A stretch of 64,000 nucleotides of DNA from NCBI GenBank assembly GCA_027658995.1, contig JAQDQK010000017.1, forward strand, positions 1 to 64,000, read 5' to 3'. Positions within the stretch are counted from its first letter, which is position 1. Every line of letters starts with the position of its first letter. Source of the DNA: Propionibacteriaceae bacterium AM104-82 (GTDB lineage: Bacteria > Actinomycetota > Actinomycetes > Propionibacteriales > Propionibacteriaceae). Of the stretch, positions 23,237-58,500 are shown one piece after another. The notes under the pieces are model-generated. The model saw only the letters and a list, made by a program, of their open reading frames with translations. It searched no databases and was not told the origin of the DNA. Position numbers and translations under genes: made by a program.

Positions 23237-23577
23237 CCAGAGGTTTCGACCGATGAGACGACGCTCCGCGCCGCCTCATGGCTCAACCAACCGGCCCGCG
23301 CCAGCGGACTTCATCGGACGCGTTGGTTGAGCCATGAAGGACGCGTCAGCGGACTTCATCGGTCGAAACCCACCCGCACCGACAAGTAGACCCAGCACCG
23401 GATGCCAGAGGTTTCGACCGATGAGACGACGCTCCGCGCCGTCTCATGGCTCAACCAACGGGACGGTGCCAGAGGTTTCGACCCGACGCTCCGCGCCGCC
23501 TCATGGCTCAACCAACGGGACGGTGCCAGAGGTTTCGACCCGACGCTCCGCGCCGCCTCATGCTCAACCAGCGAGGC
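23237..23577. repeat. Repeat family B array 1 (inverted and tandem units with a covarying hairpin)
   Basis: This stretch has no gene. Forward units beginning GAGGTTTCGACC and ending CATGGCTCAACCAA start at about 23240, 23410, 23472 and 23529. One inverted unit (TTGGTTGAGCCATGAAGG) lies at about 23325-23370. The last two forward units are a near-perfect 57-bp tandem repeat (23461 and 23518). Within units a hairpin forms around a conserved CGCTCCGCG loop, e.g. ATGAGACG (23421-23428) with CGTCTCAT (23440-23447), and ATGAAG (23334-23339) with CTTCAT (23354-23359). The same family is at 57944-58500. Confidence 0.8.
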
Positions 23578-24531
23578 TCAACCGGCGATCTTGACCGCCA
23601 GCGCGTTGCGGGCGACCTCGATGCTGGCGGAGCGGATCTCGCCGAAGTGGTCGCCGTCCAGTTCGATCTCCTCAGGTTCGCGCAGGTTCAGGTCGATGTG
23701 GGCGCACTGCAGGTAGCGCAACTCCTTGGCGTTGTCGTCGCGCTCCCGCATCCTCGACGACTTCAGGCGGCGCAGGAAGCCGTTGTCGACGAGCACCCGC
23801 CACGCGATCGCCAGCCAGCCGAACGGGCCGACCGGGCGGGCCGCGACCACGTCGAGGGCGCCGTCGTCGATCGACGCGTCGGGCATCAGCGTGACGTTGC
23901 GGCCGACGGTCCCGACGTTGCCGACCAGCACGGTGTGGACCTTCGTGATTTTCGGTTCGCCGCCGTCGATGCGGTACTGCAGCGTCATCCGGCGGCCCTT
24001 GAGCAGCGCGACCGCACCGGCCTGCACGTAGGCGAGCACCCCGACCCTCTTCTTCAGGTCCTCATCGGTGGACGACATGATCTGCGCGTCGAGACCCATG
24101 CCCGCCATCACCGCGAACGCGTGGCGTTCCTTCTCTCCGTCGGGCCGCGTCCAGTCCACGATGCCGACGTCGATGTCGCGGGTGACCCCGTTGAGCGCGA
24201 TGTCCACCGCGGCGCTCATGTCGTCGATGGGGAGGGCCAGGTGGTGCGCGAGCAGGTTGCCGGTGCCCTGCGGAATGAGTGCCAGAGGCACGCCGCTCCC
24301 CTCGAGCCCCTCGACGACGGCGCGGACGGTGCCGTCGCCGCCGACGGCGATCACCACGTCACAGCCCTGCTCGACCGCCTCGCGTGCCTGCTCGGTGCCG
24401 GGCGAGTCCTTCTCGGTCTCGAACCAGGCCGTCTCACCCCAGCCTGCCTCGGCGGCGGCCGGGTCGAGCACGGCCGCCAGGTCGGGGCGCTCGAGCTTGG
24501 TCGGGTTGAAGATGACGGCTGCGGTTGGCAT
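23578..24531 (-). CDS. Diacylglycerol/sphingosine kinase-family lipid kinase
   Basis: The 317-residue protein has a DAGK catalytic domain. It begins AAVIFNPTK, has the nucleotide-binding VIAVGGDGTVRAVVEGL at about residues 59-76, and LALIPQGTGNLLAHHL. The C-terminal beta domain contains LMPDASIDDGALDVV and EIELDGDHFGEI. Members phosphorylate diacylglycerol or similar lipids using ATP. It is followed at its 3' end by repeat array 1 and lies 47 bases downstream of glgX on the same strand. Confidence 0.88.
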   Translation of the reverse strand: MPTAAVIFNPTKLERPDLAAVLDPAAAEAGWGETAWFETEKDSPGTEQAREAVEQGCDVVIAVGGDGTVRAVVEGLEGSGVPLALIPQGTGNLLAHHLALPIDDMSAAVDIALNGVTRDIDVGIVDWTRPDGEKERHAFAVMAGMGLDAQIMSSTDEDLKKRVGVLAYVQAGAVALLKGRRMTLQYRIDGGEPKITKVHTVLVGNVGTVGRNVTLMPDASIDDGALDVVAARPVGPFGWLAIAWRVLVDNGFLRRLKSSRMRERDDNAKELRYLQCAHIDLNLREPEEIELDGDHFGEIRSASIEVARNALAVKIAG

Positions 24532-24578
24532 GCCTCATTGTTGCCGACTTCCGGGCCGGACCGGCCCGTTTGCCTGAC

Positions 24579-26906
<2,328 letters not shown>

Positions 26907-26913
26907 ACCAAAT

Positions 26914-26927
26914 ATTCTAGAACGTTC
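26914..26927 (-). promoter_or_regulatory. glgX -10 element within overlapping palindromes
   Basis: On the minus strand TAGAAT (plus 26914-26919) ends seven bases before the glgX ATG, which fits a leaderless promoter. It overlaps two 8-bp palindromes, TTCTAGAA (26915-26922) and GAACGTTC (26920-26927), that could bind a regulator. No convincing -35 was found. Confidence 0.4.
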
Positions 26928-27010
26928 AACCGAATTCGCGTATTTGCCCTACCCAGTGGCCCTGATGGCGGCGGATCTGCCGCACTGGACGAGGGTGGGG
27001 GCTTGAGGCG

Positions 27011-27090
27011 TTGAGCAGTAGCCGTTGCTCGTTGCCGATGGCAACGTTCACATCCCGTTCGGCGCCCAACGAGCCCCGGATGCTGCTCAA
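27011..27090. repeat. Nested inverted repeat between the SWIM operon end and glgX
   Basis: TTGAGCAG (27011-27018) pairs with CTGCTCAA (27083-27090). Inside it, CTCGTTG (27028-27034) pairs with CAACGAG (27067-27073), or alternatively CGTTGCC (27030-27036) pairs with GGCAACG (27040-27046). These mutually exclusive stems lie just past the stop of the minus-strand gene ending at 27116. They may end transcription or be a decayed mobile repeat. Confidence 0.45.
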
Positions 27091-27115
27091 GCAGGTGCCC
27101 AACCAGCGCCAAGCC

Positions 27116-30100
27116 TCAGGGGCTCAGCACGCCCCAAAGGTCACGGGCCTTCTGCAGAGCCTTGGTGGAGCCCTTGCGGGTGGCCAGGGCAGCGACGCCG
27201 TCCCAGGCGCGGTCGACCGGGGGCGTCCAGCCCCTCGCGGCGGCCTCGCGCAGGTGCGGCGCGAAGTGCCCCAGCGAGTCGAGGACCGGGTTCAGCCATG
27301 CGGGGAGCCTGGCGGCCGTGGCGGCGGCGCGGGTCGCCTCGGCGAGGACGGGCCACAACCGCTGCAGCGACGTGGGCATCCGCCGGACGAACACCGCGAT
27401 GCCCCGCGGGTTGAACTCCTCGCTGGCCAGCAGGGAGCGGGCCGCCGCGTCGACGCCCTGCCAGGTGAGGACGCCGCTGGTGAACACCGAGTCCTCGCTG
27501 AGCCCGTAGCGGTATTCCGGCCCGAGCCCGAGCCCGCTGCAGGTCTGGATCAGCGCCGCGGCGGTCGAGATCGTCGCCTCCGCGACCTTGTGCTTGCGCC
27601 TGCCGTCGGCGACCGGCAACCCGTCCGCCATCGTGATGGGCTCGACCCACAGCGCGCCGTCCCTCGGCGTCAGCCACAGCCACAGGTCGGGGTAACGGGC
27701 GATCCGCTCCCCCACGATCGAGTAGACCGACAGCCAGCCGGTCGCCAGGTCGTAGTGGGAGGCGCCGCGCCACCTGAACCGGGTCCCGTCGGGCAGCGTG
27801 CAGATCAGTTGCTGGTCCCAGGCACCGTCGCCCTGGCTCGGCACGAACGCGACGCCGTCGCGAATCGGCGCGGCGTCCCGAGGCTCCCCCCAGAGCCGTT
27901 CGAAGGGTTCGGACGCGACCTCGACGACCGGCTTCGTGTCCGGCGGCGTCTGGACGAGTGCCTCCAGGGTGGGCGCCACCGTCGGGGTCGGGAGCGCCGC
28001 CACCACGCCCCGGGCGAGCTTCGTGGCGCGCGATGACCCGGGCCGCTGGGCGAGGCCTCGCACCCCGGGCAGGTCCAGCGCCGCCGCGGGCGCTGCCCCC
28101 TCGTCGACGGCGGCCGCCACGTGCGGCAGCAGCGCGGCGACGGCCTCGACGACGTCGGCAGAGCCGGCCAGCAGCCTGGGCTGCCGAAGCGACGCCGCGA
28201 GAAGGTCGTCGAGCAACGGCCACACGATCGCCAGCATCCCGTCGCGCGCCAGGTCGACGCAGGCGGTGGCGAACGACGCGAGGCCCGTCGGCACCACGGA
28301 CCAGTCGAGCAGCGCGACGTCGGCGACGCCGGGGAGCAGCAGGCCCCGATCCCACGCCTCCCGCACCGCGGCCGACGCATCCGCAACGGCGGCGGGGTTG
28401 AGGCCCCGCTGGATGCCGATGATGTTGACGGCCATTCCCGGCGTGAGCGGGCGGACCCTTCGCATCGCCTGCCTCGCCTCCACGCCGAGGGCGGCGGAGC
28501 CCCAGTTGATGAGGTTCAGCGCGGCGGCATCCCCCCAGGTCGGCAGCACATAGCCGGTGAACTCGGAGCGCCCCGCGAGCCCGGAGCGAAGCCGCATCCC
28601 GAGCGTCTCGATGGCTTCGGGAGCCTTGGTCGGGGCCGTCTTGTAGCCGTCGTCCTCCCGGTCCGGGATCAGTCCCGGCTCGCAGAAGGGGGCGTCGAGG
28701 TAGTCGGCGGCCAGCCTGCCCGCCGACTCGTGCGTGCCCGCGACCCGCACCGTGGTCGCCCGGAGGTCGTCCCGGACGGCCTTCGTGGCGAGCGACGCGT
28801 CGAGGCGGGTCAGCGCGAGGGCGAGGTCGGCGCGGCCGGGCGCGATCCCTTCGTCCCGGTAGCGGCGCAGCCTCGCCAGCAGGTCGGCCGGGTCGATCCG
28901 GAGGTCCTCCCACGTCGGCGTCGACAGCGGCACCGGCAGCGCGCCGAGCCGGGCCACGACCTCGACCTCGCGGCGCGCCCCTGGGGTGTCGATGCCGAGC
29001 CTCCTCGCGTCGGTCACCGGGGTGCCCGAGCGCCAGGCGCCGATCGCCAGGAGGCCGGGCACCAGGCTCTCGCCGACGCCCGCCAGCGCCTCGCTCGCCG
29101 CGATGGGGTCGAGCCGGGCGACCTCGTTGGCGAGGGCGAGGAAGCGGTCCGCCTCGACATCCTCCGCGAACGGCGGCCTGCGGAGCAACCGGGCGGCGGC
29201 CTCCGTCAGCGCCTGCGGTGTCGGTTCCGGGACGGCGAAACGGGGCACCTCCCACAGCGGGGGCGGCTGCACCCACAGGCCACCCGCCTCGACGTCGTCT
29301 GCGGCATCATCCGCGGCGCCGATCCCCCAGGCGTCGGCCAACGCCAGCGCCGCCTTCGCGACCGCGGCGTCGGAACTGGCGAGGTGGGGCGGCAGCAGGG
29401 CCGCCGCGATGTCGATCGCCTCCTCGGAGGGGCGGGAACGCTCGGCGGCGGCCCGGAGCACGGTGCGCGCGGCCTTCTTGATGGTCGTGCCGAGCGTCAC
29501 GGCGAGCACGTCGCCAAGCACGGCATCGTCGGCGCGCGCGATCAGGACGGGGGCGAAGCGTTCGATGAGGGGGCCTTCGCCGTGCGACATGGCGGAGACG
29601 AGAAGGTCGGCCCGGGTGAGGAGTTCCTCGTCGGTGACGGCCAGCGCCTCGAGCGCCCGCAGCCACATCCGCCTGTCGACCTGCCGGGTCGCGGCGTCGA
29701 GCCCGGAGAAGGTGGCCTCAAGGCCACGGTCGCGCGGGACGAGGCCGTCCCGGACCGCCCAGCCCAGCAGGTCGTCCCAGCGGCCGTCGGCCGACACCCC
29801 CGCCGTCAGTGTGGCTTCGAGGTGCTCGGCGAAGCGCGCCTCGACGTCGGGCCGGGGAGGGAGGTCGCCGTTGGGATCGGGAAGCATGGCCGGGTCGAGC
29901 ACCATCGCCGCGTAGGAGGCCCACTGGTCGAGGTACTCGCGGTCCGGAGGCAGCGGAAGGCCCAGCCGGGCGACCAGCGAGACGATGGCGGGGAGGGCGT
30001 CCCAGCGGCGGCCCCGCGCGCGGCAGTAGGCCGACGCGAAGTCCTCGCCGCGCTCCGCAACCAGCCGGATGGCGAGTTCCCGGTCGGCGACGGGGAGCAA

Positions 30101-30355
30101 CTGCACGGCCCGCGAGGCGGGCACGCCGACCCGGACGGCGAAGTAGCCGAGCAGGTCGTCGTTGTCGTCGACGGCGCTCTGCCATCCGCGGTAGCCGTAC
30201 TCGCCCCATTCGCCCTTCGCGAGGCCCCGCTTGGCGACGGCCCGCTGCTCGGGGGTGCCGAGCGGCAGCGACTCGACGTCGGCGCGGTCGGCGCCCGCCC
30301 AGCCCAGTTCGCGGAAGACGGCGTAGGCGGCGGCCTGGTCCGCGGTCAGCCTCAT
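27116..30355 (-). CDS. Large SWIM-partner protein (DUF6493-like, helical repeats)
   Basis: The 1079-residue cytoplasmic protein begins MRLTADQAAAYAVFRELGW. It is rich in Ala, Leu, Asp and Arg in repeated amphipathic helices of HEAT-like appearance (LLTRADLLVSAMSH, IDIAAALLPPHLASSDAAVAKAALALADAWG). A C-terminal beta-rich part contains GDGAWDQQLICTLPDGTRFRWRGASHYDLATG. No enzyme motif was recognised. Its start overlaps the SWIM gene's stop in ATGA. Comparable large partners sit beside SWIM genes in other actinobacteria, and DUF6493 is my best family guess. A longer open frame continues upstream, but it is antisense to SWIM coding and not real. Confidence 0.7.
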   Translation of the reverse strand: MRLTADQAAAYAVFRELGWAGADRADVESLPLGTPEQRAVAKRGLAKGEWGEYGYRGWQSAVDDNDDLLGYFAVRVGVPASRAVQLLPVADRELAIRLVAERGEDFASAYCRARGRRWDALPAIVSLVARLGLPLPPDREYLDQWASYAAMVLDPAMLPDPNGDLPPRPDVEARFAEHLEATLTAGVSADGRWDDLLGWAVRDGLVPRDRGLEATFSGLDAATRQVDRRMWLRALEALAVTDEELLTRADLLVSAMSHGEGPLIERFAPVLIARADDAVLGDVLAVTLGTTIKKAARTVLRAAAERSRPSEEAIDIAAALLPPHLASSDAAVAKAALALADAWGIGAADDAADDVEAGGLWVQPPPLWEVPRFAVPEPTPQALTEAAARLLRRPPFAEDVEADRFLALANEVARLDPIAASEALAGVGESLVPGLLAIGAWRSGTPVTDARRLGIDTPGARREVEVVARLGALPVPLSTPTWEDLRIDPADLLARLRRYRDEGIAPGRADLALALTRLDASLATKAVRDDLRATTVRVAGTHESAGRLAADYLDAPFCEPGLIPDREDDGYKTAPTKAPEAIETLGMRLRSGLAGRSEFTGYVLPTWGDAAALNLINWGSAALGVEARQAMRRVRPLTPGMAVNIIGIQRGLNPAAVADASAAVREAWDRGLLLPGVADVALLDWSVVPTGLASFATACVDLARDGMLAIVWPLLDDLLAASLRQPRLLAGSADVVEAVAALLPHVAAAVDEGAAPAAALDLPGVRGLAQRPGSSRATKLARGVVAALPTPTVAPTLEALVQTPPDTKPVVEVASEPFERLWGEPRDAAPIRDGVAFVPSQGDGAWDQQLICTLPDGTRFRWRGASHYDLATGWLSVYSIVGERIARYPDLWLWLTPRDGALWVEPITMADGLPVADGRRKHKVAEATISTAAALIQTCSGLGLGPEYRYGLSEDSVFTSGVLTWQGVDAAARSLLASEEFNPRGIAVFVRRMPTSLQRLWPVLAEATRAAATAARLPAWLNPVLDSLGHFAPHLREAAARGWTPPVDRAWDGVAALATRKGSTKALQKARDLWGVLSP

Positions 30356-31659
30356 CGCGGGTCGCCTGCGCTGAGGTCGACGGCGAGCGCGTGGGCGCAC
30401 GGCCCACGGCCGGTCCCGTGGCGCAGGTACCAGGTGCAGGTGCAGGTCGGCCCGCTGGAGGACCGGCGCACCGTGTAGACGGTATCTCTTGAGGTGACCC
30501 GCCAACTGCCGTCGGGGGCGGGGGCCACGAGGCCCGCGTCGGCCATCGCGCGGGCCTTGACGAGCCTCGGGTTGTCCCGGTCGACCCGGTCGGGGTCGTG
30601 CGGGAGTTCCCGGTGGAACCAGGCCTGGTCGTGCGCGTCCCAGCCGACCCGGCCCGACGCGGCGAGGACGGCGAGGCCGCCTCGGACGCGGGCCTCCTCC
30701 AGGTTCGCCTCGCGGGCCAGGCGAGGCACGTCGATGACAGGCTGGAAGGCCAACAGCGCGGCGATCAGGTCGCCGTCGTCGAGCACATCGGCGCCCGACA
30801 GGCCCGTCAGGAGCGAACCCTCGCCGGAGTGCCCGCGCCAGGCCTCCTCCGTCAGGCCGAGCGTCAGCCTGGCGCCCGGCAGGTCGGCGGTGACGATCAC
30901 CGGACCCGCGTCGTCGGTGCCGTGGATCGACAGGCCGCTCACGTGCGGCAGGAGTCGCTTGAGGGCGTTGAGCCGGTTGAGGCCGGAGATCCGCACCGAG
31001 CCTGCCACCCGGCGCGGGCTGACCCTGCCCTGCGGCGTGACCCAACCGTCCTTGCCGGTCGACGTCGCGCCGGGCAGGGCCGCGACGAAGGCCTTGGCCT
31101 CTGGGCCCTTCAGGATGACGGCCAGCGGCAGGTCGCGGTGCAGTTCCGCCACGTTGCCGAGCGCCCGCACCCAGCGGGCGGGCATCTCGACGGGCCGTTC
31201 GACCGCCGTCGCCTCCGGAGTGGAGACGGTGAGGCCGGTGGCGCCGACGTCGAGGTGGAGGAGTTGGTCCCTTCCGACCTTGGTGAGCGCCGACCTGGTG
31301 GCGAGGTTGATGTCGACGTTGGTGGTGCCGTGCGCGATTTCCCCGGTGTCGAAGGCGTCGGGCAGCAGGTCGAGCCGCGCGTAGACGCCATTGCATGCGG
31401 AGAAGCATTCCGCGCGGAGCCTGTCGCCGTGGGCGGTCAGGACCGGGTCGCGCAGGCTGGCGGGCGCGAACTGGAAGTAGCGGGTGGCGGTGACGTCGGC
31501 GAGCGAGAGGAGGCCGCGGGCGAGCACCAGGGGGTGCGCCGCGAAGCCGCTGAAGAAGGTGGGGTCCTCGACGAGTCCTTCCGGGGTGAGCGCGGGTGCG
31601 AGCGCGAGTCCGAGATCGTCGTCGATCAGCGCTGAGGTGGCGTGGAAGGCGCGGCTCAT
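30352..31659 (-). CDS. SWIM zinc-finger protein
   Basis: The 435-residue protein ends with a SWIM zinc finger: CTCTWYLRHGTGRGPCAHAL at about residues 406-425 supplies the CxC...CxH ligands. The N-terminal part has RGLLSLADVTATRYFQFAP and DVNINLATRSAL. SWIM fingers mediate protein or nucleic-acid contacts. Homologs often lie with MoxR ATPase and vWA-domain genes of the YehQ/YehL type, but neither occurs here. It forms a two-gene, translationally coupled operon with the large gene at 27116-30355. Confidence 0.82.
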   Translation of the reverse strand: MSRAFHATSALIDDDLGLALAPALTPEGLVEDPTFFSGFAAHPLVLARGLLSLADVTATRYFQFAPASLRDPVLTAHGDRLRAECFSACNGVYARLDLLPDAFDTGEIAHGTTNVDINLATRSALTKVGRDQLLHLDVGATGLTVSTPEATAVERPVEMPARWVRALGNVAELHRDLPLAVILKGPEAKAFVAALPGATSTGKDGWVTPQGRVSPRRVAGSVRISGLNRLNALKRLLPHVSGLSIHGTDDAGPVIVTADLPGARLTLGLTEEAWRGHSGEGSLLTGLSGADVLDDGDLIAALLAFQPVIDVPRLAREANLEEARVRGGLAVLAASGRVGWDAHDQAWFHRELPHDPDRVDRDNPRLVKARAMADAGLVAPAPDGSWRVTSRDTVYTVRRSSSGPTCTCTWYLRHGTGRGPCAHALAVDLSAGDPR

Positions 31660-31702
31660 GGCGAGAGTCTAGTCAGGGGCCGGTCGCGCCCGCCTCCGCC
31701 GC

Positions 31703-33064: not shown

Positions 33065-33128
33065 CGGTTCCTCCCTTCCTGGACCGAGTCTGCCAGCCGA
33101 GGGCGACAACGCGCCGTACAGTGACGCC

Positions 33129-33761: not shown

Positions 33762-33785
33762 ACAGAACGCGACCGGAGACACGCC

Positions 33786-34556: not shown

Positions 34557-34615
34557 GGGCCAACGCTAGTGACCCACAGGTGCACGGATGGCTGGACTGT
34601 CGGCAGAAACGGGCG

Positions 34616-34642
34616 CTGCCCCCGATCGGCGATCGGGGGCAG
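34616..34642 (-). terminator. Strong hairpin terminator after the LPSTG surface protein
   Basis: CTGCCCCCGATC (34616-34627) and GATCGGGGGCAG (34631-34642) are perfect 12-bp arms with a 3-base loop. It lies 12 bases beyond the stop of the minus-strand surface protein gene. It lacks a marked T run, as is common in high-GC actinobacteria, but the stem is very stable. Confidence 0.7.
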
Positions 34643-34654
34643 CGGCTCAGTTCG

Positions 34655-37095: not shown

Positions 37096-37116
37096 GCACG
37101 GTTCTTTCAGTAGCTG

Positions 37117-42005: not shown

Positions 42006-42079
42006 CGGCGCCTCCTTCAAGTCGGCGCCAACCGTATCGATCAGGAGGTCCACCGGATGGTTGCGTCGGGGTCACTGAC

Positions 42080-42415
42080 GCTCATCGAGCCTGTCGAGAC
42101 GTCCGAAAGCCCAGCGGTGGTTTCGGACCCTTCGACAAGCTCAGGGAACGACCCGCACCCGTTCCTCGAGCTTGTCGAGAGGTCCGAAAGCCGAGCGGTG
42201 GCTAAGGACCCTTCGACAAGCTCAGGGAACGAGACGACAAGCCCAGGAACGACCCACACCCGTTCGTCGAGCCTGTCGAGACGTCCGAAAGCCGAGCCGT
42301 GGTCATGGACCCTCCGACCAACCCAAGAACGACCCGCACCCGTTCGTCGAGCCTGTCGAGACGTCCGAAAGCCCAGTGGTGGTTTCGGACCCTTCGACAA
42401 GCTCAGGGAACGACG
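42080..42415. repeat. Repeat family A array 1
   Basis: No gene is present. Alternating units of CCTTCGACAAGCTCAGGGAA (about 42129, 42210, 42390) and TTCGTCGAGCCTGTCGAGAC-type sequence (about 42082, 42161, 42262, 42342), the latter followed by GTCCGAAAGCC. The two cores are reverse-complement relatives (GAGCTTGTCGA versus GAGCCTGTCGA), so neighbouring units can fold back on each other like REPINs. The array lies between the lipoprotein gene and the 3' end of ilvE. Confidence 0.85.
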
Positions 42416-42449
42416 CCCACCGGGCGCCGGGCTCTGGAGACCGTGAGCC

Positions 42450-45582: not shown

Positions 45583-45589
45583 CGGGCAC

Positions 45590-46470
45590 CGTTCGTCGAG
45601 CCAGGCGAAATGCACCAGACGGCGCGGCCGCGCACCGTTCGTGGAGCCACGCCGAATGTGCCAGACGGCGCGACCAGGGCACCGTTCGTCGCGCCTGTCG
45701 AGACGTCCGACACCACAGCGGCCACCACTCGGATCGACTCCCGGCAACGCACACCACGGCGCACCACCCGGCCCCTTCGACAAGCTCAGGGAACGACACC
45801 GAGCCACGCGAAATGCGCCAGACGGCGCGACCAGGGCTACGTTCGTCGAGCCTGTCGAGACGTCCGACACCACAGCGGCCACCACTCGGATCGACTCCAC
45901 CGACGCCACACTGCTGGCGAACCAACTGACCGTTCGTCGAGCATGTCGAGACGTCCGACACCCTGAACACTCGACTCGGCTCTCCCAACGCCAGACCACG
46001 GCGCACCAACCGGACCCTTCGACGAGCTCAGGGAACGACACCGAGCCAGGCGAAACGTGCCAGACGGCGCGACCAGGGCTACGTCCGTCGAGCCTGTCGA
46101 GACGTCCGATACCACAGCGACAGCCCCTCGGATCGACTCCTCAACGACACACCACCGCACACCAACCGGACCCTTCGACAAGCTCAGGGAACGACACCAA
46201 GCCAAGCGAAACGTGCCAGACATCGGGACCCGGGCACCGTTCGTCGAGCCTGTCGAGACGTCCGACACCACAGCGGCCACCACCCGGATCGACTCCCCGC
46301 AACGCACACCACGGCGCACCACCCGGACCCTTCGACAAGCTCAGGGAACGACACCATGCCACGCGAAACCGGCCAGACAGCGCGGCCAGGCCACCGTTCG
46401 TCGAGCCTGTCGAGACGTCCGACACCACGGCCAGACGGATCGATTCCTTCGGCACTCGCCTGCTCGATAG
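45590..46470. repeat. Repeat family A array 2, composite units with about 155-bp period
   Basis: There is no real gene in this gap. Forward cores near TTCGTCGAGCCTGTCGAGAC fall at about 45683, 45840, 45931, 46082, 46238 and 46395, mostly 151-157 bases apart. Opposed cores near TTCGACAAGCTCAGGGAACG fall at about 45776, 46019, 46171 and 46330. Between them lie conserved spacers: GTGCCAGACGGCGCGACCAG and CACCACAGCGGCCACCACTC. This is the longest array in the window. It separates the MFS gene from the ECF41-controlled operon. Confidence 0.85.
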
Positions 46471-46536: not shown

Positions 46537-46563
46537 TGTCACACTTCGCCCGGTCCGATCGTC
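46537..46563 (+). promoter_or_regulatory. ECF41-type promoter of the oxidoreductase-sigma operon
   Basis: TGTCACA (46537-46543), exactly 16 bases, then CGTC (46560-46563) equals the promoter motif I recall as published for ECF41 sigma factors. The expected transcription start falls at about 46571, at or next to the ATG at 46572, so the message would be leaderless. The operon encodes an ECF41 factor, which fits autoregulation. Confidence 0.8.
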
Positions 46564-46571
46564 ACATGGTC

Positions 46572-48501: not shown

Positions 48502-48520
48502 CTCACGGGCGCCTACCGCT

Positions 48521-48577
48521 CGCCGGTTCCGGCGAAGACGCGACCGCACTACTACGCTGCGTAGCAGTACCGGTCGC
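48521..48577 (+). terminator. Paired hairpins after the ECF41 gene
   Basis: CGCCGG-TT-CCGGCG (48521-48534) is followed by GCGACCG (48540-48546) pairing with CGGTCGC (48571-48577) around an inner TACGC-T-GCGTA stem (48553-48563). Their place 20 bases past the sigma gene stop suggests transcript termination. No T run is present. Confidence 0.5.
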
Positions 48578-48619
48578 GGCATCGAGGCTGCGACACGTCG
48601 GCGTCTCGGTGGAGGTCAG

Positions 48620-49090
48620 ATGAGGGCGATCGTGGGTCTCGCGGCGGCAGGCATCCTGGCGCTCGGCGCGTGCGCACCGGGTCCCGGTGATCGGCCACAG
48701 GAGAGCGACTCCCCTCCCGGATCGACGCCCGCTGTGGCACCCACGCCCCAGCCGACCGGGGCCGCGACGGCGCCGGACGAGACGGCACGGTCGCGGGCAG
48801 AGACGTTCCTGGCTTGGCGCGTCGAGCAGTTGGGCGCGGAGACACACTACGTGCGGTGGGACGAACCCGTCCTGCCGAGCTACGAGTTCGCGGCGTCGAC
48901 GCCGCGCCTCAAGGTCGTCGCGAGTTGCTTCGCCGAGGATTCCGGACAGCTCGTCTCGGTCACCCTCTCGCAGGGCGGCAACCAGTTGACCCGGCTCCGC
49001 CTCGGCTGCGACCCGACCGGGGAGAGAGCGGGAGAGATCGAGCCCTACGTCCGAAACCACAAGCCCAGCCACTGCGACCGGGTCCCCTAG
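48620..49090 (+). CDS. Small putative lipoprotein with repeat-derived C-terminus
   Basis: The 156-residue protein has a lipoprotein signal (MRAIVGLAAAGILALGACAPG, lipobox LGAC), a Pro/Thr/Ala linker and a small domain (AETFLAWRVEQLGAETHYVRWDEP, LKVVASCFAEDSGQLVSVTLSQGG). GGAGG six bases before the ATG supports the start. The last dozen or so codons (YVRNHKPSHCDRVP) lie in a stretch repeated almost exactly at 49205-49252 in the adjoining array, so the original C-terminus was probably replaced by a repeat. Function is unknown. Confidence 0.6.
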   Translation: MRAIVGLAAAGILALGACAPGPGDRPQESDSPPGSTPAVAPTPQPTGAATAPDETARSRAETFLAWRVEQLGAETHYVRWDEPVLPSYEFAASTPRLKVVASCFAEDSGQLVSVTLSQGGNQLTRLRLGCDPTGERAGEIEPYVRNHKPSHCDRVP

Positions 49091-49335
49091 CGCCACACCA
49101 CTGTGCACCAACCGGACCCTTCGACAAGCTCAGGGAACGGTGTCGGACCCTTCAACAAGCCCAGGGAACAGCAGCGAAACGTCGCACCGCTCGTCGAGCC
49201 TGTCGAGACGTCCGAAACCACAAGCCCAGCCACTGCGACCGGGTCCCCTAGCGCCACACCACTGTCCGCCAACCGGACCCTTCGACAAGCTCAGGGAGCG
49301 GTGCTCGGCCCCTTCGACAAGCTCAGGAACGAGCC
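49051..49335. repeat. Repeat family A array 3
   Basis: Core CCTTCGACAAGCTCAGGGAA-type units lie at about 49118, 49149 (degenerate), 49278 and 49310. One opposed GTCGAGCCTGTCGAGACG unit lies at 49192-49209. A segment starting GTCCGAAACCACAAGCCCAG at 49050 recurs at 49210 and runs through the lipoprotein stop codon into CGCCACACCACTGT. The array lies between the lipoprotein gene and the convergent gene at 49363. Confidence 0.8.
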
Positions 49336-49362
49336 GTGGACACGCCCACCTCAGCCCGATCC

Positions 49363-50388: not shown

Positions 50389-50921
50389 GACGGTTCTCCT
50401 TGGGTGTGGACGACCAGCGCGAGGCGCGGCGCGGCGGGCTCGTCGAGGAGCCGCTGCGCGCGCTGCCGTGCGCGCATCAATCGGGTACGGGCGGCCGAGT
50501 CGCGCAGGTCGAGGACCACTGCGATCTCGGCGGGGGTCAGCCCCTCCCACGCGGTGAGCCGGAGGATCTCGGCGTCGAGGGCGGGCAACTGGGCGAGCAC
50601 GCTCTCGGCGAGCGCGAGGCTCGACTGGTCTGCCCCTGGGGTTGCGGTGTCGGTCAGGGAGTGCGCGACGGCGTCGCGCAGGTTCAAGCGCCGCGCGAGC
50701 GAGCGGCGCTCGTGGAGGATCACGTGTCGGGCCGTGCGCAGCAGCCACGGCAGCGCCGGCTCCGGGACGTCGCGACGTCGACGCCAGGCGGCGGCGAAGG
50801 TCTCCGCCACGACGTCATCGGCCGAGTCGGGACCAACCCGTCGGACGGCGTAGGCCCGCACGGAGGTGGCGTGCAGGTCGAACAGCGCCTCGAGCCAGTC
50901 GTGGTCCTGTTGGTCTCTCAT
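50385..50921 (-). CDS. Sigma-70 family (ECF) RNA polymerase sigma factor
   Basis: The 178-residue protein has sigma-2 (WLEALFDLHATSVRAYAVRRVGPDSADDVVAETFAAAWRR, residues 9-48) and sigma-4 (LPALDAEILRLTAWEGLTPAEIAVVLDLRDSAARTRLMRARQR, about 113-155). It should direct a small regulon and is translationally coupled to the CU044_5270-type gene. No clear autoregulated promoter motif was identified upstream. Confidence 0.9.
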   Translation of the reverse strand: MRDQQDHDWLEALFDLHATSVRAYAVRRVGPDSADDVVAETFAAAWRRRRDVPEPALPWLLRTARHVILHERRSLARRLNLRDAVAHSLTDTATPGADQSSLALAESVLAQLPALDAEILRLTAWEGLTPAEIAVVLDLRDSAARTRLMRARQRAQRLLDEPAAPRLALVVHTQGEPS

Positions 50922-50979
50922 GCCCCTTAGTTCCCGGCCGAGCGCCCCGCGTCACGGGTGCGCGGCAAGGTCGCCCAAC

Positions 50980-51396
50980 TCAGTCCTGGGGGATGGTCCC
51001 GTCGAGGGTCCATGCGAGGAACTCCTTCAGGTCACCGGTCTCCCCGTCGCGACCTCCCCTGCCGATCACCAGCGGGGCGAGCGTCGGCTGGAGCTTGACG
51101 CCGCGGAGCCGCTCCTTCCAGCCGCCGGGCACGACGAGCGTGTAGTAGTTGCCGTCGGTGTCGATCGCGACCGAGTGGTTGGTCCGCAGGTACCAGCCGA
51201 CCTTGTCCGTCTTGACGAGGTGGCCGTCCAGGGTGCGCGCCTTGAGCGCCCTCGGGGCGAGCCCAGCGGCGTCGGCATCCAGGATGAACTGGTCGATCAG
51301 CACCTTTGCCCTGACGGCCTCGGCGCGCGCCGCGCCCTCGTTGAGCTCGTGCCGCTTGCGGGCGGCCTTCTGCCGCTCCGAGAGTTCGTCAGCCAT
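50980..51396 (-). CDS. Conserved hypothetical protein
   Basis: The 138-residue cytoplasmic protein starts with a charged helix (ELSERQKAARKRHELNEGAARAEAVRAKVLIDQFI). A compact beta region follows: GLAPRALKARTLDGHLVKTDKVGWYLRTNHSVAIDTDGNYYTLVVPGG. No family was recognised. The ATG at 51396 is favoured because the longer frame adds a low-complexity leader. It diverges from the membrane protein gene at 51487. Confidence 0.6.
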   Translation of the reverse strand: MADELSERQKAARKRHELNEGAARAEAVRAKVLIDQFILDADAAGLAPRALKARTLDGHLVKTDKVGWYLRTNHSVAIDTDGNYYTLVVPGGWKERLRGVKLQPTLAPLVIGRGGRDGETGDLKEFLAWTLDGTIPQD

Positions 51397-51486
51397 GCCG
51401 ATCAGCCTAACCGGAGTGGGCGCGCCAACCGGCAAGGGGTCGCGGTGCCCCGGGGCGCGGACTCACCCACGGTTACAGTAACCGCC

Positions 51487-52995
51487 ATGAATGACCACGG
51501 CCCGACCTACGACCGGGCTGGTCAGAGCTCCCCCAATGCCGAGGCCGTCGGCTTCACCTCCCCGACCCAGGCGGCCGATGCCGCCAACGGGGGCGACGTC
51601 CCGACGCTTGGCGCCGGGCCGCGCTTCGTCCGGGTCCCGGCCTCGGGCCCGACCGCAGCAGCGCTCGTGGTTGAGCAGGTGCTGATCGCCCTGATCGGAG
51701 GCTCGCTCCTGACGGGTCTGGCCGGGCTGGGCGTGATGCTCGCGCTCGACGAGGACGCGATCGTGCTGCCCGCCTCCTGGAACCAACTCGATTCCTTCGC
51801 GCGCAAACTGCTGCCCTTCGCACTGCTGTCGGGGATGGCCCTTCCGCTCCCCTGGATGCTCGCGCGGGTCGTGCGAGGCCTGCTGACCTCCAGGGACGTG
51901 AGACGGTTCTGCGCGACATCCGGAGACGCCGTCCCGATCGAAGAGCAGCGAAAGAGCAGGGAGGCGGTCCGCGACATCCTCACCACGACGGGGTACGTGA
52001 CGGCCGTCACGGGCGGAGTGCTGCTCGTCTGCTGCCTCGGCGTGACCCTGACGGCCCTCGGCGACGAGGACATGCTCGGCATCGGGCTCATAGCGTCCGC
52101 CATCTCGGGAGCCCTGCTGTTCGTGGGCGTCTGGCTCGTTCGGCACCCGATCGCCGTCGGAAACCCTGAGGACCACGTGCCGGGCGGTGACCTCGCCACC
52201 GTCGCGCGTGCCGAGGAGGCGACCGCCCGGACCATCGAGGCACAGCTCGCAGCGCGCGCCTCGGAGCCACCCAAGACCCTCCCGGGGCGCTGGCCGTGGC
52301 TCGACACCGCGGCGCGCGTGGCGTGGCGGCTCGGTGGGGTCGCCACCGGCCTGGCGCTCCTGATCCTGGTGGGCGCCACGCTCCTCCGCAAGCCGTGTCA
52401 GGGGTGCGACGAGCGCTACTTCGGCCAGGAGGTCGAGTCCCTGCTGGGGGCAGGCCTCCTCATCGCCTCGATCTTCACGATCGCGGCGGTGGTACTGCTC
52501 ACGCTCGCCCCACTGGGTGAGGTGGTCTCACAGCTTGGCACCGAGCGACTCGTGCGTCGGCAGGCCGGCCTTCCCGGCGTTGGTGCGCTGCGGCCGTCCG
52601 ACAGCGCGGCCGAACAACTGCTGCGGCTGCCCTCGCCCCTGAAGAGCCTCGGCATCATCCTCGGCATGTGGGCCGCCGCGTTCGGTTGGTTCTGGCTCTC
52701 GGCCTCGCTTGAGGCCGCAGAGGGGCATCCGCCGTTCGCCGGTCGTGCCTGGCTGTGGGCGCTGGTGGCGTGCCTTGTGTTGCTGACGTCGTCGGCGGTC
52801 ATCCTCCGCGTGGCGCTGCGCGAGTCCGAGGCGACCGCCCATGTGGTGCGGGCCACCTGGCCCGTCGTCGACCCTCCGCCCGCGGATCCCGCGACCATCG
52901 CCGACGACACGACGGGTCAGGATGCGGCGACGACACTGGACGCCGCGACGGCCACGGACGCTGCGGCCGACTCCGATCCGTCGGCGTCTCGCTAG
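51487..52995 (+). CDS. Polytopic membrane protein, tandem paralog 1
   Basis: The 502-residue protein has about eight helices after a disordered head. Landmarks shared with the next gene are GPRFVRVPAS before helix 1, LPASWNQLDSFARKLLPF, DVRRFCATSGDAVP, a cytoplasmic stretch ending EPPKTLPGRWPWLD, a KPCQGCDERYF loop with a CxxC pair, TERLVRRQAGLPGVGALRPSD, and LGIILGMWAAAFGWFWLSASLEAAEGHPPF. The C-terminal tail is rich in Ala, Thr and Asp. No family or function was recognised. The ATG at 51487 precedes the shared region. Confidence 0.7.
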   Translation: MNDHGPTYDRAGQSSPNAEAVGFTSPTQAADAANGGDVPTLGAGPRFVRVPASGPTAAALVVEQVLIALIGGSLLTGLAGLGVMLALDEDAIVLPASWNQLDSFARKLLPFALLSGMALPLPWMLARVVRGLLTSRDVRRFCATSGDAVPIEEQRKSREAVRDILTTTGYVTAVTGGVLLVCCLGVTLTALGDEDMLGIGLIASAISGALLFVGVWLVRHPIAVGNPEDHVPGGDLATVARAEEATARTIEAQLAARASEPPKTLPGRWPWLDTAARVAWRLGGVATGLALLILVGATLLRKPCQGCDERYFGQEVESLLGAGLLIASIFTIAAVVLLTLAPLGEVVSQLGTERLVRRQAGLPGVGALRPSDSAAEQLLRLPSPLKSLGIILGMWAAAFGWFWLSASLEAAEGHPPFAGRAWLWALVACLVLLTSSAVILRVALRESEATAHVVRATWPVVDPPPADPATIADDTTGQDAATTLDAATATDAAADSDPSASR

Positions 52996-53005
52996 GATCG
53001 CGGCC

Positions 53006-54481
53006 GTGTCATTCCCAGGCAGGCGCCGACGGCGCGAGCGGCGCCCCGACCCGCCACAGATCGACTTCACCTTCGAGCCCGTGCAGCCCGAGGCCGACGA
53101 GGCACGCCCCCAGCCCAGGCGGTCCGCCGACCGCGACCTGATGCTGCGCGAGGGGCCCCGCTTCGTCCGCGTCCCCGCCTCAAGGACGACCGCGGCTCTC
53201 ACCGTCGCGGAACACATCGTGCTGACCGTCATCGCCGGCTCGGTGGCCACCGGCGTGGCCGCACTCGCGCTTGGGTTCGCGCTCGACGAGCGGCTCATCG
53301 TGCTGCCCGCGAGCTGGGGCCAGCTCGACTGGTTCGCCCGCAAGCTGATCCCCCTCCCGATGTTCGGTGCGATCGCGCTCGCCTCGGTCTACGGGTTGCT
53401 GCTGATCCTGCGCGGCGTCTCGACCGACGCCGACGTCCGCCGCTTCTGCGCGACCCCGGGTGACGCGATGCCCGTCGCCGCGCAGCGCGGCGAATGGGAG
53501 AAGGTCCGACAGCGCCTCGAGCACGCCGGATGGTCGACCCTCCTCTTCGGGGGGATCATGCTCCTGATCGGGTTGATCATGCTGCCGATGGACGACTCCG
53601 GTACGCGGCCCTACAGCCTCGGGTTGATCGGCATCTCCGCCGTCATCGCGCTTGTCGGCCTGCTTGCTGTGCGGTTCCTGCCTCACACGAAGGGCACCGA
53701 GTTCTACGTGCCCGACGGAGACTTCTCCGTCCTGACCGCCGCCGAGAAGCAGACGGCTCGCGTCATCAAGGCGCAACTGGCCGCGCGGAACGAGGAACCT
53801 CCAGAGACGCTGCCTGGGCGCTGGCCACGGATCGACGCCCTGGCCAACCGGCTGATGATGGCCGGGCTCTGGGCGGTCGGCGTGGCGTTCGTGTCGCTGC
53901 TGGGCGCCGTCATGCTGCGGCAGCCGTGCCGGTTCTGCGAGCCGCGCTTCTACGCAAGCCCCATCGAGGCCGCGCTCGCAGTGGTCTTCGGGATCGTCAC
54001 GGTGGCGACGGTGGCGGCTGTCGTCCTGCTGACGGTCGGGCCGCTGCTCGCGCTGATCTCCAGCCTCGGCACCACCCGGCTGGTGCGCGAGCAGTCCGTG
54101 CTACCCGGCATCGGGGAACTGCGGCCGAGCGACCAGGCGCTGCACCAACTGATGCATCAGCCGTCGGCGCTGCGCGGCCTCGGCACCGTGATCGGGATGT
54201 GGGGCTGCGCCTTCCTGTGGTTCTGGCTCTCCGCCGTCGTCGAGGCGGCCTACGGGCACGTGCCGTTCTCGGAGCACTCCTGGTCGTGGGCACTCGCGGT
54301 GGCGGTCGCACTGCTTGTCACCTCCGGCGTGGTCCTTATCAACGCGCGACGCGACAGCGAGGAGACCGAGGCGGCGGTGCGCGCCGCCTGGCCTGTCGTC
54401 GACCCGCCGAAGACGATCCTCACAACTTGGGCAGCAGGCCGAAAAAGGCGACCTCGTCGTCGCTCATCATCCGGGACCTGA
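53006..54481 (+). CDS. Polytopic membrane protein, tandem paralog 2
   Basis: The 491-residue paralog of the gene 10 bases upstream starts at GTG with a basic head (PGRRRRRERRPD). It repeats the shared landmarks GPRFVRVPAS, LPASWGQLDWFARKLIPL, DVRRFCATPGDAMP, EPPETLPGRWPRID, QPCRFCEPRFY (CxxC loop), TTRLVREQSVLPGIGELRPSD and GMWGCAFLWFWLSAVVEAAYGHVPF. Its basic C-terminal tail is encoded in a 62-base stretch that overlaps the convergent DUF779 gene, so the last 20 residues may be under dual constraint. Function is unknown. Confidence 0.7.
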   Translation: MSFPGRRRRRERRPDPPQIDFTFEPVQPEADEARPQPRRSADRDLMLREGPRFVRVPASRTTAALTVAEHIVLTVIAGSVATGVAALALGFALDERLIVLPASWGQLDWFARKLIPLPMFGAIALASVYGLLLILRGVSTDADVRRFCATPGDAMPVAAQRGEWEKVRQRLEHAGWSTLLFGGIMLLIGLIMLPMDDSGTRPYSLGLIGISAVIALVGLLAVRFLPHTKGTEFYVPDGDFSVLTAAEKQTARVIKAQLAARNEEPPETLPGRWPRIDALANRLMMAGLWAVGVAFVSLLGAVMLRQPCRFCEPRFYASPIEAALAVVFGIVTVATVAAVVLLTVGPLLALISSLGTTRLVREQSVLPGIGELRPSDQALHQLMHQPSALRGLGTVIGMWGCAFLWFWLSAVVEAAYGHVPFSEHSWSWALAVAVALLVTSGVVLINARRDSEETEAAVRAAWPVVDPPKTILTTWAAGRKRRPRRRSSSGT

Positions 54482-54809
54482 TCAGGAACCGGTTGCCGGT
54501 CGGCGCCTCGACGCTGAAGCCGGCGCCACGGCCCGGCACGACGTCGATCGTCAGGTGCGTGTACTTCCAGTAGTCGTACTGCGACTCCGACATGTAGACC
54601 TCGATGGGCTCGAGGCCGTCGACGCGCAGGGCGTCGAGCAGCACGTCGGATGGACCCGTCAGGAACATCCCGACGGGGTAACACATCGGCGAACTGCCGT
54701 CGCAGCAGCCGCCGGACTGATGGAACATCAAGGGTCCGTGCTGTGCCGTGAGGTCCTTCAGCAGGGACGCCGCCGCCTCGGTGACGTCGACACGGGTCGG
54801 TTCGCTCAT
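54420..54809 (-). CDS. DUF779 domain-containing protein
   Basis: The 129-residue protein has the DUF779 hallmark HGPLMFHQSGGCCDGSSPMCYPVG with three clustered cysteines (about residues 33-46), then VYMSESQYDYWKYTHLTIDVVPGRGAGFSVE. DUF779 genes regularly follow aldehyde dehydrogenases; the Cys cluster suggests metal or redox chemistry. The ATG at 54809 is preferred to one four codons upstream. It is the second gene of the ALDH operon and overlaps the convergent membrane protein gene by 62 bases. Confidence 0.85.
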   Translation of the reverse strand: MSEPTRVDVTEAAASLLKDLTAQHGPLMFHQSGGCCDGSSPMCYPVGMFLTGPSDVLLDALRVDGLEPIEVYMSESQYDYWKYTHLTIDVVPGRGAGFSVEAPTGNRFLIRSRMMSDDEVAFFGLLPKL

Positions 54810-54833
54810 GGCTCTCCTCAACGAGAAGGTGAG

Positions 54834-54899
54834 GAGGGCGAGGGAAACCGGGATCCCTCGCCCTCCGGGTCTGGCTCGGGAAGGGGGGACACCCGAGCC
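54834..54899 (-). promoter_or_regulatory. Two strong intercistronic hairpins between ALDH and DUF779 genes
   Basis: GAGGGCGAGGG (54834-54844) with CCCTCGCCCTC (54855-54865) gives a perfect 11-bp stem. GGCTCGGG (54873-54880) with CCCGAGCC (54892-54899) gives an 8-bp stem. Both lie in the 96-base gap inside the presumed operon. They may attenuate or protect the transcript so that ALDH outnumbers DUF779. Confidence 0.6.
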
Positions 54900-54905
54900 G
54901 GTCTG

Positions 54906-56462
<1,557 letters not shown>

Positions 56463-56561
56463 AGCGGGTGTCTCCTTTGACTTGTGCGTCGCGCTCCCGG
56501 TGGGGACGACCAAGTCGTCCCCGGCGACGATGTGGCAACGCTAGTCAGGAGAAGGTTGCAA

Positions 56562-57875
56562 CTAGGTTGCGTCGAGCCTCTCGACGCGGGCGAGGACGCC
56601 TGCACGCTTGGGCGACTTGGCGGGCAGTTGTTCGAGGATCAGCATCAGCAGTTCCCGGTCGTCGGCGCCCGCCTCGGTGTCGGCGAAGGCCAGCAGCACG
56701 TCGGGGCTCGCCTCGGCCATCAGGGCCTCGCGCAACGTCGCCCGGACGGTGTCGCGGAACTCGGTGACGCCGGTGGCGTCCGATTCGGGCAGCACGTCGC
56801 CGCGGTAGGCGGCGAGCGCGACGCGGTGCGCTCCCCTGTCGAGCAGGCCGAGGACGCCGTGCGCGTCGGTGGTCATGGTGCCGACCAGGCGGTACGGACG
56901 CGAGGCGAGGTCGATGTCGGAGGTCGCCCGGCGTAGCGCCTTGCGGAGCCGGACGATCTCGGGTCGCAGCGTCGCGGGGTCGGCGCCCTCGCCGTAGACC
57001 AGTTCGGCGAGCCGCTCGGCGGACAGGCCGGCCGGGTTCAGCCTGAGCAACAGCAGGATCTCGGCGTGGCGCCGTCCGAACTCGACGACCGAGGCGCCGT
57101 CGTCGCCCTGCAGTTCGAGCGCCGCGCGCTGCCTGCCGAGCACCTGGAGGGTCGCCTGGTTGACGCGTCGCCTGCGCTGGGGTCGGTGCTGCGGGGTAGC
57201 CTCCCTGGCGCGCAACCGTGAGATCAGGAGTTCGGACTCGACGGCGCGCGCGGTCGCGTCGACGAGGAGTTGCGCCTGCGGGGTGATCGCCTGGGTGCCG
57301 CCGGTGATGTCGATGACGCCGATGACGCGCCGGGTCTCCGGATCGCGGACGGGGGCGGCGGTGCATGACCAGGGCGCGACGCGCAGGTTGAAGTGTTCGG
57401 CGCCGTGGATCTGGACGGAGCGGCCCAGTTCGATCGCGGTGCCGGGCGCCGAGGTGCCGACGGCGGCCTCCGACCAGTTGGCGCCCGCGACGAAGCCGAT
57501 GTCGCCGGTGCGGTTGCGGATCTCGCGGTCGCCCTCGACCCACAGCAGTCGCCCGGCCGCGTCGCCCACCGCGACGACGATGCCCGAGTCGCGCGAACCG
57601 CCCGGGAGCAGCAGGCCGCAGATCAGGTCGAGGGTCGAGGCGAGCGGATGGCCACGGAGGTACTCGTCGAGTTCGTCGCCGGTCAGGTCGACCGGGGGAA
57701 GCCCCTCGGCGCGGACGCTGCCCGCCATTGAGCGGCGCCACGACTCGCGCACCAGGGACCGGATGTCGTCGAGGGGACCGCCGTCGGGATCGTCGGTGAG
57801 GAGATGCTCCCGGGCGCGCTCGATCCGGCGACGCGTCTGGGCCGCGTCACGATCCTCTGACCAGGGCGACGACAA
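56562..57875 (-). CDS. GAF-domain transcriptional regulator of the aldehyde dehydrogenase
   Basis: The 437-residue protein starts with LVRESWRRSMAGSVRAEGLPPVDLT, typical of AcoR/acetoin-type activator N-termini. A GAF sensor domain follows (GDIGFVAGANWSEAAVGTSAPGTAIELGRSVQIHGAEHFN, VIGVIDITGG). A C-terminal winged-helix-like region contains FGRRHAEILLLLRLNPAGLSAERLAELVYGEGADPATLRPEIVRLRKAL. No AAA+ or Fis domain is present. It is a likely activator of the downstream ALDH-DUF779 genes. TTG at 57875 with GGAG five bases upstream is the preferred start; a longer TTG start at 57932 is possible. Confidence 0.78.
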   Translation of the reverse strand: MSSPWSEDRDAAQTRRRIERAREHLLTDDPDGGPLDDIRSLVRESWRRSMAGSVRAEGLPPVDLTGDELDEYLRGHPLASTLDLICGLLLPGGSRDSGIVVAVGDAAGRLLWVEGDREIRNRTGDIGFVAGANWSEAAVGTSAPGTAIELGRSVQIHGAEHFNLRVAPWSCTAAPVRDPETRRVIGVIDITGGTQAITPQAQLLVDATARAVESELLISRLRAREATPQHRPQRRRRVNQATLQVLGRQRAALELQGDDGASVVEFGRRHAEILLLLRLNPAGLSAERLAELVYGEGADPATLRPEIVRLRKALRRATSDIDLASRPYRLVGTMTTDAHGVLGLLDRGAHRVALAAYRGDVLPESDATGVTEFRDTVRATLREALMAEASPDVLLAFADTEAGADDRELLMLILEQLPAKSPKRAGVLARVERLDAT

Positions 57876-57943
57876 GAGGGCTCCGTTCCCGGGTGGAGCT
57901 GGGAGGTTCAGTCTAAGTCGACGGCACCGCAATGCAAGGGCTT

Positions 57944-58500
57944 GTCAGTCGACCACCGCTGGGTGAGCCATGAGGACCACCGCTGGGTGAGCCATGAGGG
58001 ACGCGGAGCGGACCTCATCGGTCGAAGCCTCTCGATGATCCACGCAGACCCAGACACCGCCCCGCCTCCCGACGGAGGACCGGAACAGACCCAGCGAAAC
58101 CTCACCAGGTTTCGACCGATGCCCCGCTGGGTGAGCCATGAGGGACGCGGAGCGGACCTCATCGGTCGAAGCCTCTCGACGATCCACGCAGACCCAGACA
58201 CGGCCCCGCCTCCCGACGGAGGCTGGAACAGACCCAGCGAACGTCACCAGGTTTCGACCGATGTCGACCGCTCCGCGCTCGACATGGCTCAACCAACACC
58301 GCTGGGTGAGCCATGAGGGACGCGCAGCGGACCTCATCGGTCGAAGCCTCTCGGCGGTGCGCGCAGACCCAGACGCAACCCTGACGAGGGACAGGAACAG
58401 ACCCAGCAGAGCCGGGAACAGACCCCGTCGACGTCACCAGGTTTCGACCGATGTCGACCGCTCCGCGTTCGACATGGCTCAACCAGCGACTCAACCGGCG
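57944..58500. repeat. Repeat family B array 2 with covarying hairpins
   Basis: This gap of about 550 bases has no gene. Inverted units beginning GCTGGGTGAGCCATGAGGG start near 57982, 58126 and 58301. Direct units beginning AGGTTTCGACCGATG lie near 58107, 58250 and 58439. Stems around the conserved CGCTCCGCG core vary together: ATGAGG (57994-57999) with CCTCAT (58013-58018); ATGTCGA (58261-58267) with TCGACAT (58279-58285); ATGTCGA (58451-58457) with TCGACAT (58469-58475). Linkers carry repeated CGCAGACCCAGACAC and GGAACAGACCCAGC segments. Confidence 0.85.

Follow-up and report, generated by a model that had tools for sequence, protein, structure and literature searches.

According to the portions of two published accounts drawn on here, repetitive extragenic palindromes (REPs) mostly belong to the GTAG or the CGTC type, and pairs of unlike partners as well as a convergent or unidirectional location are common among them (PMC3733652, PMC6006769). 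The same portions describe GTAG REPs mainly from gamma-Proteobacteria (PMC3733652, PMC6006769) and place CGTC REPs, apparently without a dedicated transposase, in Proteobacteria, Chlorobi, Bacteroidetes, Spirochaetes and Thermotogae; the word "Actinobacteria" is absent from the main text of the latter source (PMC3733652). The subject of this report is family B, a dispersed palindrome found in two arrays (array 1 at 23.2-23.6 kb, array 2 at 57.9-58.5 kb) of a 64,000-nucleotide stretch of Propionibacteriaceae bacterium AM104-82, called the window throughout. Family B shows what REP or bacterial interspersed mosaic element (BIME) denotes in the wide sense: many extragenic palindromes (up to 276 matches per genome), set in inverted pairs and arrays that lie mainly at the 3' ends of genes. 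Open PubMed Central text (titles and abstract starts, and a search with a literal 13-mer) returned no description of it, which may be published elsewhere. We consider it on balance probable that family B is a REP- or BIME-like palindrome that would act as a folded 3' RNA element and would have spread without a Y1 transposase of the REP-associated tyrosine transposase (RAYT) kind. The puzzle that REPs pose is what keeps the elements folded and what spreads them, and here hundreds of copies per genome occur without a sign of RAYT in the relatives.

A fixed outer motif around a variable stem

The family B unit of about 48 nt occurs in both orientations and reads directly, in both arrays, GGTT-TCGAC-C-(stem-loop)-G-GCTC-AACC. 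The window holds eight full copies, on the plus strand from 23242, 23410, 58250 and 58440 and on the minus strand from 23370, 58029, 58173 and 58348, and truncated or half copies at 23474, 23531, 58108 and 57951.

23242-23289, plus: family B long form, stem ATGAGACG/CGCCTCAT, one mismatch
23324-23370, minus: inverted family B, stem ATGAAG/CTTCAT; its stretch GTTTCGAC...GGCTCAACC is identical in genome G1168
23410-23457, plus: family B, stem ATGAGACG/CGTCTCAT, perfect
23474-23513, plus: truncated family B copy, left stem arm partly gone
23531-23583, plus: second truncated family B copy, extra GGCTCAACC tail
57951-57974, minus: partial family B copy, the GCTCACCC half alone
57984-58029, minus: family B, stem ATGAGG/CCTCAT with a TC/TC internal loop
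58108-58121, plus: family B half copy (GGTTTCGACCGATG)
58128-58173, minus: family B, stem ATGAGG/CCTCAT
58250-58295, plus: family B, stem ATGTCGA/TCGACAT
58303-58348, minus: family B, stem ATGAGG/CCTCAT, core CGCTGCGCG
58440-58485, plus: family B, stem ATGTCGA/TCGACAT

The first-pass annotation had described, in both arrays, a hairpin with matched stem changes around a fixed core and fixed flanks. The four stem types are as it claimed, namely ATGAGACG/CGTCTCAT (perfect at 23410, with a single A.C mismatch in the 23242 copy), ATGAAG/CTTCAT, ATGAGG/CCTCAT (the minus copies 58029, 58173 and 58348) and ATGTCGA/TCGACAT (58250 and 58440). The fixed part stood only in part: the core CGCTCCGCG varies, reading CGCTGACGCG in the minus copy at 23370 and CGCTGCGCG in that at 58348, and a further departure is one outer-stem pair changed from T-A to the unpaired C.C in all three minus copies at 58 kb. 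The left stem arm is lost in two truncated copies (at 23474, part of the arm). On its more stable strand the unit reads 5'-TGGTT-GA-GC-(stem, apical hairpin, stem')-GTC-GA-AACCA-3'; the letters themselves are constant in the outer motif, and what the inner helix preserves is chiefly its shape.

The clearest case of a shape kept without sequence is the genome G113 (handles of this form denote the genomes compared), in which no two of the ten copies listed, of 12 counted, share a stem within the one frame; eight of them pair well and two poorly. Their stems are paired at a mean of 5.9 of 7 positions against 3.2 after permutation (0 of 20000), and identity between copies is 0.72 in the central 10-mer and 0.38 in the left arms. 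Among 207 flank-anchored copies (155 unique inner sequences), the inner arms are paired at 4.35 of 6 positions, against 2.75 ± 0.08 and a maximum of 3.02 in 2000 permutations. Nothing was demanded of the stem at collection, the reversed-anchor control returned 0, and 35 representatives less than 75% alike still gave 3.74 paired positions against 2.46 ± 0.17, with the qualification that all permutation statistics ignore kinship among copies. Of the 155 unique inner sequences, 123 have C-G as their first inner pair.

In a set of 259 copies, drawn from more sequence and passed through an outer-stem filter, 27 of 33 distinct double-change events are paired and 6 unpaired, and the distinct single-arm events comprise 27 A.C, 14 G.T and 20 others, events being scored only inside same-length groups of at least four. 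These paired double changes, together with the many unrelated stems in one frame, speak against a derivation of the stems from two recombining ancestral variants, which had been named at the outset as an explanation to be excluded. The filter removed copies without three matching outer-stem bases from the event, context, tag and strand counts, the flank-anchored pairing test being free of it. Since the three minus copies at 58 kb in the window and their counterparts in G1168 are lost to it, and also fail the flank anchors, inverted neighbours and TC/TC loops are undercounted there. Inner sequences with a second core (GCTCA, TTCGAC, TGAGC or GTCGAA) were excluded from the pairing, event and context counts.

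Two alignments, each of a single length class, gave covariation above that of shuffled sequences. Alignment 1, which consists of 12 distinct ungapped copies of the 47 nt class from the window and G1168 with other lengths excluded, scored 0.234 against 0.084 ± 0.016 (0 of 500 shuffles), with slid partners at 0.100 or less; further pair types, one of five measures applied to it, were not above shuffles (7 versus 8.7). Its outer stem changes as matched pairs in three G1168 sequences, and one outer pair is lost in the window's minus copies at 58 kb. Alignment 2, with 39 ungapped sequences of another length, scored 0.167 against 0.093 ± 0.009 (0 of 500), slid partners reaching at most 0.051. The fold is conserved. 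The first-pass annotation had gone on to equate covariation with a selected fold, and of this the compensatory changes above chance hold; however, template switching in quasi-palindromes can likewise restore pairing, so that covariation by itself is no proof of selection, and we regard selection, as against neutral palindrome repair, as likely and unproven.

Gene ends and the folding strand

The genomic context was read from 1.62 Mb of G1168, G1076, G1100 and G932, with genes called by a simple codon-usage script. None of the 116 long elements lies inside predicted coding DNA, though this makes up 81-91% of the sequence in the four genomes, and the elements sit singly, as inverted pairs and as tandem arrays between genes, above all at convergent ends. 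Among intergenic regions of at least 60 nt, elements occupy 21 of the 112 that are convergent, 7 of the 177 divergent and 14 of the 415 tandem regions (convergent regions versus all others, 21 of 592, p = 9e-8). A lone scored element is found in 17 of these 42 occupied regions, and the fullest region has eight. Neighbours less than 300 nt apart are mostly inverted (31 -+ and 19 +-, versus 15 ++ and 8 --). The element nearest to a gene 3' end, at a median distance of 90 nt, puts the TGAGC strand in the transcript in 43 of 56 cases (p = 7e-5), and in 12 of 14 when only tandem regions are counted. With the elements at convergent ends, readthrough transcripts would therefore usually carry the folding strand.

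Three weak-to-moderate signs, none decisive, lean modestly towards the TGAGC-to-GTCGA strand as the one that folds and is read as 3' RNA. Read on this strand, the invariant letters form 5'-GA/5'-GA internal loops, and tandem G.A pairs of the sheared kind are known for their stability in both RNA and DNA. The commonest 2x2 unpaired loop in the inner helix is TC/TC, which is GA/GA on the other strand (68 of 169 unique inner sequences, the next type having 12). Folded as RNA, 158 of 208 copies do better on the TGAGC strand (-20.1 kcal/mol on average, against -17.2 for the other strand). On the TTCGAC strand A.C events exceed G.T events (27 versus 14), which would equal tolerance of G.U on the other strand, and unpaired sites are without such a bias (G>A 11, C>T 10). 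Folded as DNA, two of three long window copies beat nearly all shuffles on both strands. Nothing in the window reached an Rfam gathering score; on array 2, with E up to 1, two matches appeared, both far under their gathering scores.

The likeliest function would be that the folded 3' RNA element protects transcript ends or limits convergent readthrough. A protein may recognise the folded RNA through the GA/GA internal loops, and the copies may have been amplified by an activity other than a Y1 (RAYT) transposase, along with unequal recombination inside arrays. In the window, array 1 lies between convergent gene ends and array 2 between divergent genes.

22804-23214, plus: LMWPc phosphatase family gene flanking array 1, convergent with the DAGK/YegS gene
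23578-24531, minus: diacylglycerol-kinase (DAGK)/YegS family gene flanking array 1
56545-57741, minus: gene upstream of array 2, without a Pfam match, adjoining an ExaC-type aldehyde dehydrogenase gene
58555-59556, plus: LacI-family regulator gene flanking array 2

A promoter-like match (TTGACG, 17 nt, TATTCT) stands at 58538-58566, after array 2 and directly before the LacI-family gene.

Relatives, short form and mobiliser

For the search of relatives only the outer letters were fixed (GTTTCGAC, 12-42 free bases, GGCTCAACC). The pattern is present in 42 of 293 genomes from the order of a Nocardioides genome, in 10 of 298 from the order of G545 and in 11 of 386 from the order of a Microbacterium genome; its backward-read control gave 1, 2 and 2 matches in total in the three orders. 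Several of the sparse matches are single and probably of chance origin, the pattern also picks up two consecutive short forms (plainly so in G1171, G1049 and G1331), and the exact outer anchors used for the counts miss divergent copies. The copy-rich genomes include G1100 with 276 matches, G1076 with 216, G1168 with 209, G932 with 175 and G976 with 107. An exact flank pattern found nothing in GTDB r220 contigs, in viral contigs or in 19 genomes reached via ExaC loci; it required the window's own GATG/CATG letters, and relatives were found once the stem was left free. Blast searches returned no match, whether array 2 was compared with plasmids or array 1 with phages.

The window's genus comprises 39 genomes in the order of the Nocardioides genome. 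It was reached through the repeat itself; neither the ferrochelatase nor the array 2 regulator had placed the organism, and the likeness of the ExaC-type gene to Microbacterium was misleading. Among the 30 members in the pattern sample, 15 have at least one match and 8 at least 12, the range within this one genus being 0 to 216 per species. G1168, a member of this genus, shows synteny to the window (DNA identity of 79-92% in the larger pieces over 42-62 kb), and one window copy is found in it letter for letter. The arrays differ between species at orthologous sites: where the window has array 2, with two full plus-strand copies, G1168 carries five such copies, and none is seen in the matching stretch of G1189. 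At the array 1 site G1168 has a related stem, ATGAAGCG/CGCTTCAT, and another hairpin type. In G1119 no array was found at either site, the neighbouring genes being partly different. With 0-216 matches in one genus, and with orthologous sites that do and do not hold arrays, gain, loss and any effect on neighbouring genes become directly testable.

Some features of the window apart from these hairpin repeats were also noted. Within positions 1-531 a tandem repeat of about 410 bp begins, with two copies 81% alike, and G1168 has some seven matching stretches at the syntenic place. Synteny breaks at 11799-11818, where about 14 kb lie between the matching ends in G1168. The ferrochelatase gene at 10191-11240 is in a region syntenic in G1168. 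Its best listed match reached 39% identity in two genome samples, of which 130 of 296 and 24 of 65 genomes gave a match, the window's genus not being among those searched.

The window's other repeat, family A, holds TCGACARGCTC within matched arms at 42.1-42.4, 45.6-46.4 and 49.0-49.3 kb, the arms being CCCT/AGGG in one orientation and CGTC/GACG in the opposite one.

42060-42420, no strand assigned: family A array, CCCT-TCGACAAGCTC-AGGG and inverted CGTC-TCGACAGGCTC-GACG
45583-46440, no strand assigned: family A array, both orientations
49040-49335, no strand assigned: family A array, both orientations

This 11-mer lies inside at least 11 fully complementary arm pairs (window and loci of G1168, G024 and G545). 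Over 42 unique arm pairs the outer arms are paired at a mean of 2.55 of 4 positions against 1.38 ± 0.15 permuted, where the innermost pair is preset in the G024 and G545 loci, which were chosen by TTCGACARGCTCA. As the same 11-mer sits in many complementary arm pairs, one outer module is common to both families, and family A is a short form of the family B design that lacks an inner helix and has its outer stems swapped. In G1171 family A forms a head-to-tail array of units of about 27 bp (GTTTCGACAGGCTCAACC plus spacer). The observation is wider than first reported, in that the family extends across relatives and to a short form.

The REP-associated Y1 transposase to which the first-pass annotation had pointed did not turn up: PF01797 has no match in 43 relatives (38 of the genus's 39 genomes and five carriers outside the genus), a set that does not include the window's own genome. 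Fourteen of these 43 have at least eight pattern matches, mainly short forms in G1171 and G1049, and five have 107-276; in a control set the same profile was detected in 5 of 14 named genomes. PF01797 was also not found in G024, G545 and G001, other transposase families not having been searched for. RAYT is thus dropped as the mobiliser in the relatives searched by PF01797, G451 excepted. In five intervals between neighbouring arrays the predicted genes look ordinary and no REPtron-like gene was seen on reading them, no library search having been made; one IS30-like transposase fragment is among them.

Alternative readings and comparison with known repeats

The fold could have been selected as single-stranded DNA, family B then being a non-autonomous mobile hairpin akin to a REPIN (REP doublet forming hairpin), cut and copied in trans by a transposase that was not recognised or has since been lost. 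The inverted pairs and tandem arrays, the patchy copy numbers inside the genus (15 and 8 of 30 genomes at the two thresholds above), the array sizes that differ at an orthologous site down to none in the G1189 stretch, and the two of three window copies that fold well as DNA on both strands are all consistent with such an element. We nevertheless hold it to be unlikely, since PF01797 is absent from 43 of 43 genomes, the genes of the five inter-array intervals, the IS30-like fragment included, read as ordinary, and from a DNA hairpin by itself no bias in orientation relative to genes would be expected. Less likely again is upkeep without selection on the fold, in which template switching or fold-back synthesis during replication copies one arm onto its partner and unequal recombination enlarges the arrays. 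Quasi-palindrome correction is known to concentrate at hairpins, entire stems differ at once and not pair after pair, and the arrays resemble tandem duplications, as this neutral process would have it; yet the outer motif and the apical centre are more fixed than the stems (in G113 0.72 versus 0.38, the outer anchors being part of the search pattern), and the elements are biased both to convergent gene ends and in orientation. That the elements are bidirectional intrinsic transcription terminators would suit their enrichment between convergent genes and near 3' ends, but we consider it very improbable, as neither window array has a T-tract terminator, a site may hold up to eight elements and 7 of 42 occupied regions are divergent.

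Several observations weigh against the reading that we favour, a folded 3' RNA element spread without a Y1 transposase. The 7 divergent regions among the 42 are joined by array 2, at which a 3'-end role is not expected because it too lies between divergent genes. The inverted-pair unit may itself produce the orientation bias, both ends of one convergent region enter the orientation count without being independent, and single elements in tandem regions (6 of 7) give p = 0.125. As for the strand, the polarity of A.C over G.T reaches only p = 0.06, one pair of alignment 2 has 12 U.G cells on the TTCGAC strand, the TC/TC loop occurs in only 5 of 59 unique G1168 inner sequences (the filter drops the ATGAGG type of array 2), and by inspection the second GA/GA loop is missing from two of the four window stem types. 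Neither strand of the 57982-58029 copy folds better as DNA than its shuffled versions, nor does one of the two as RNA, and the lack of a T-tract terminator in both window arrays counts here too. A single folded copy of family A was no better than its own shuffles, so that the case for the short form depends on the matched arms. Finally, G451, with 11 short-form cores, carries six PF01797 genes.

Among known repeat kinds, integron attC sites share with family B variable but structure-conserved hairpins with unpaired bases, fixed outer boxes and arrays; the outer boxes of family B are, by eye, off the attC consensus, and no cassettes were seen, an integrase not having been searched for. Y/Z-type REPs, types named in PMC6006769, are likewise inverted pairs of unlike hairpins arrayed between genes, whereas family B has a different sequence, an actinobacterial host, a fixed TCGAC/GCTC motif and no RAYT in the relatives. 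GTAG REPs and REPINs, which go with RAYT (TnpA-REP), resemble family B, in the portions of the accounts drawn on, as short extragenic palindromes of many copies, with inverted pairs often of unlike members and a 3'-end bias (PMC3733652; PMC6006769). They differ in the foot, since within 7 nt on both sides GTAG accompanies 1 and GTGG 8 of 208 family B copies, and in the RAYT gene, PF01797 being found in none of the 43 relatives. CGTC REPs, as far as the portions drawn on of the work of Di Nocera and co-workers in 2013 describe them, apparently have no dedicated transposase, stand mostly in head-to-head pairs and often have CCA tails (PMC3733652). Family B is similar in its pairs and tails, and for the transposase the comparison covers PF01797 alone; however, their foot is seldom present (within 7 nt, CGTC in 11, TGTC in 1 and CCTC in 8 of 208 copies), and their 8-9 bp stem beginning AT next to the tag is not in family B. 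Because the organisation is common to these types but both tags are rare, family B is REP-like yet a member of neither the GTAG nor the CGTC type. We put forward tentatively, as a proposal that is more doubtful than probable, that it may represent a third large REP type beside these two, occurring in the three actinobacterial orders sampled: a modular hairpin whose GA/GA internal loops and apical centre are fixed and whose stem is nearly free, which would be read as RNA at convergent ends by a protein and amplified without Y1.

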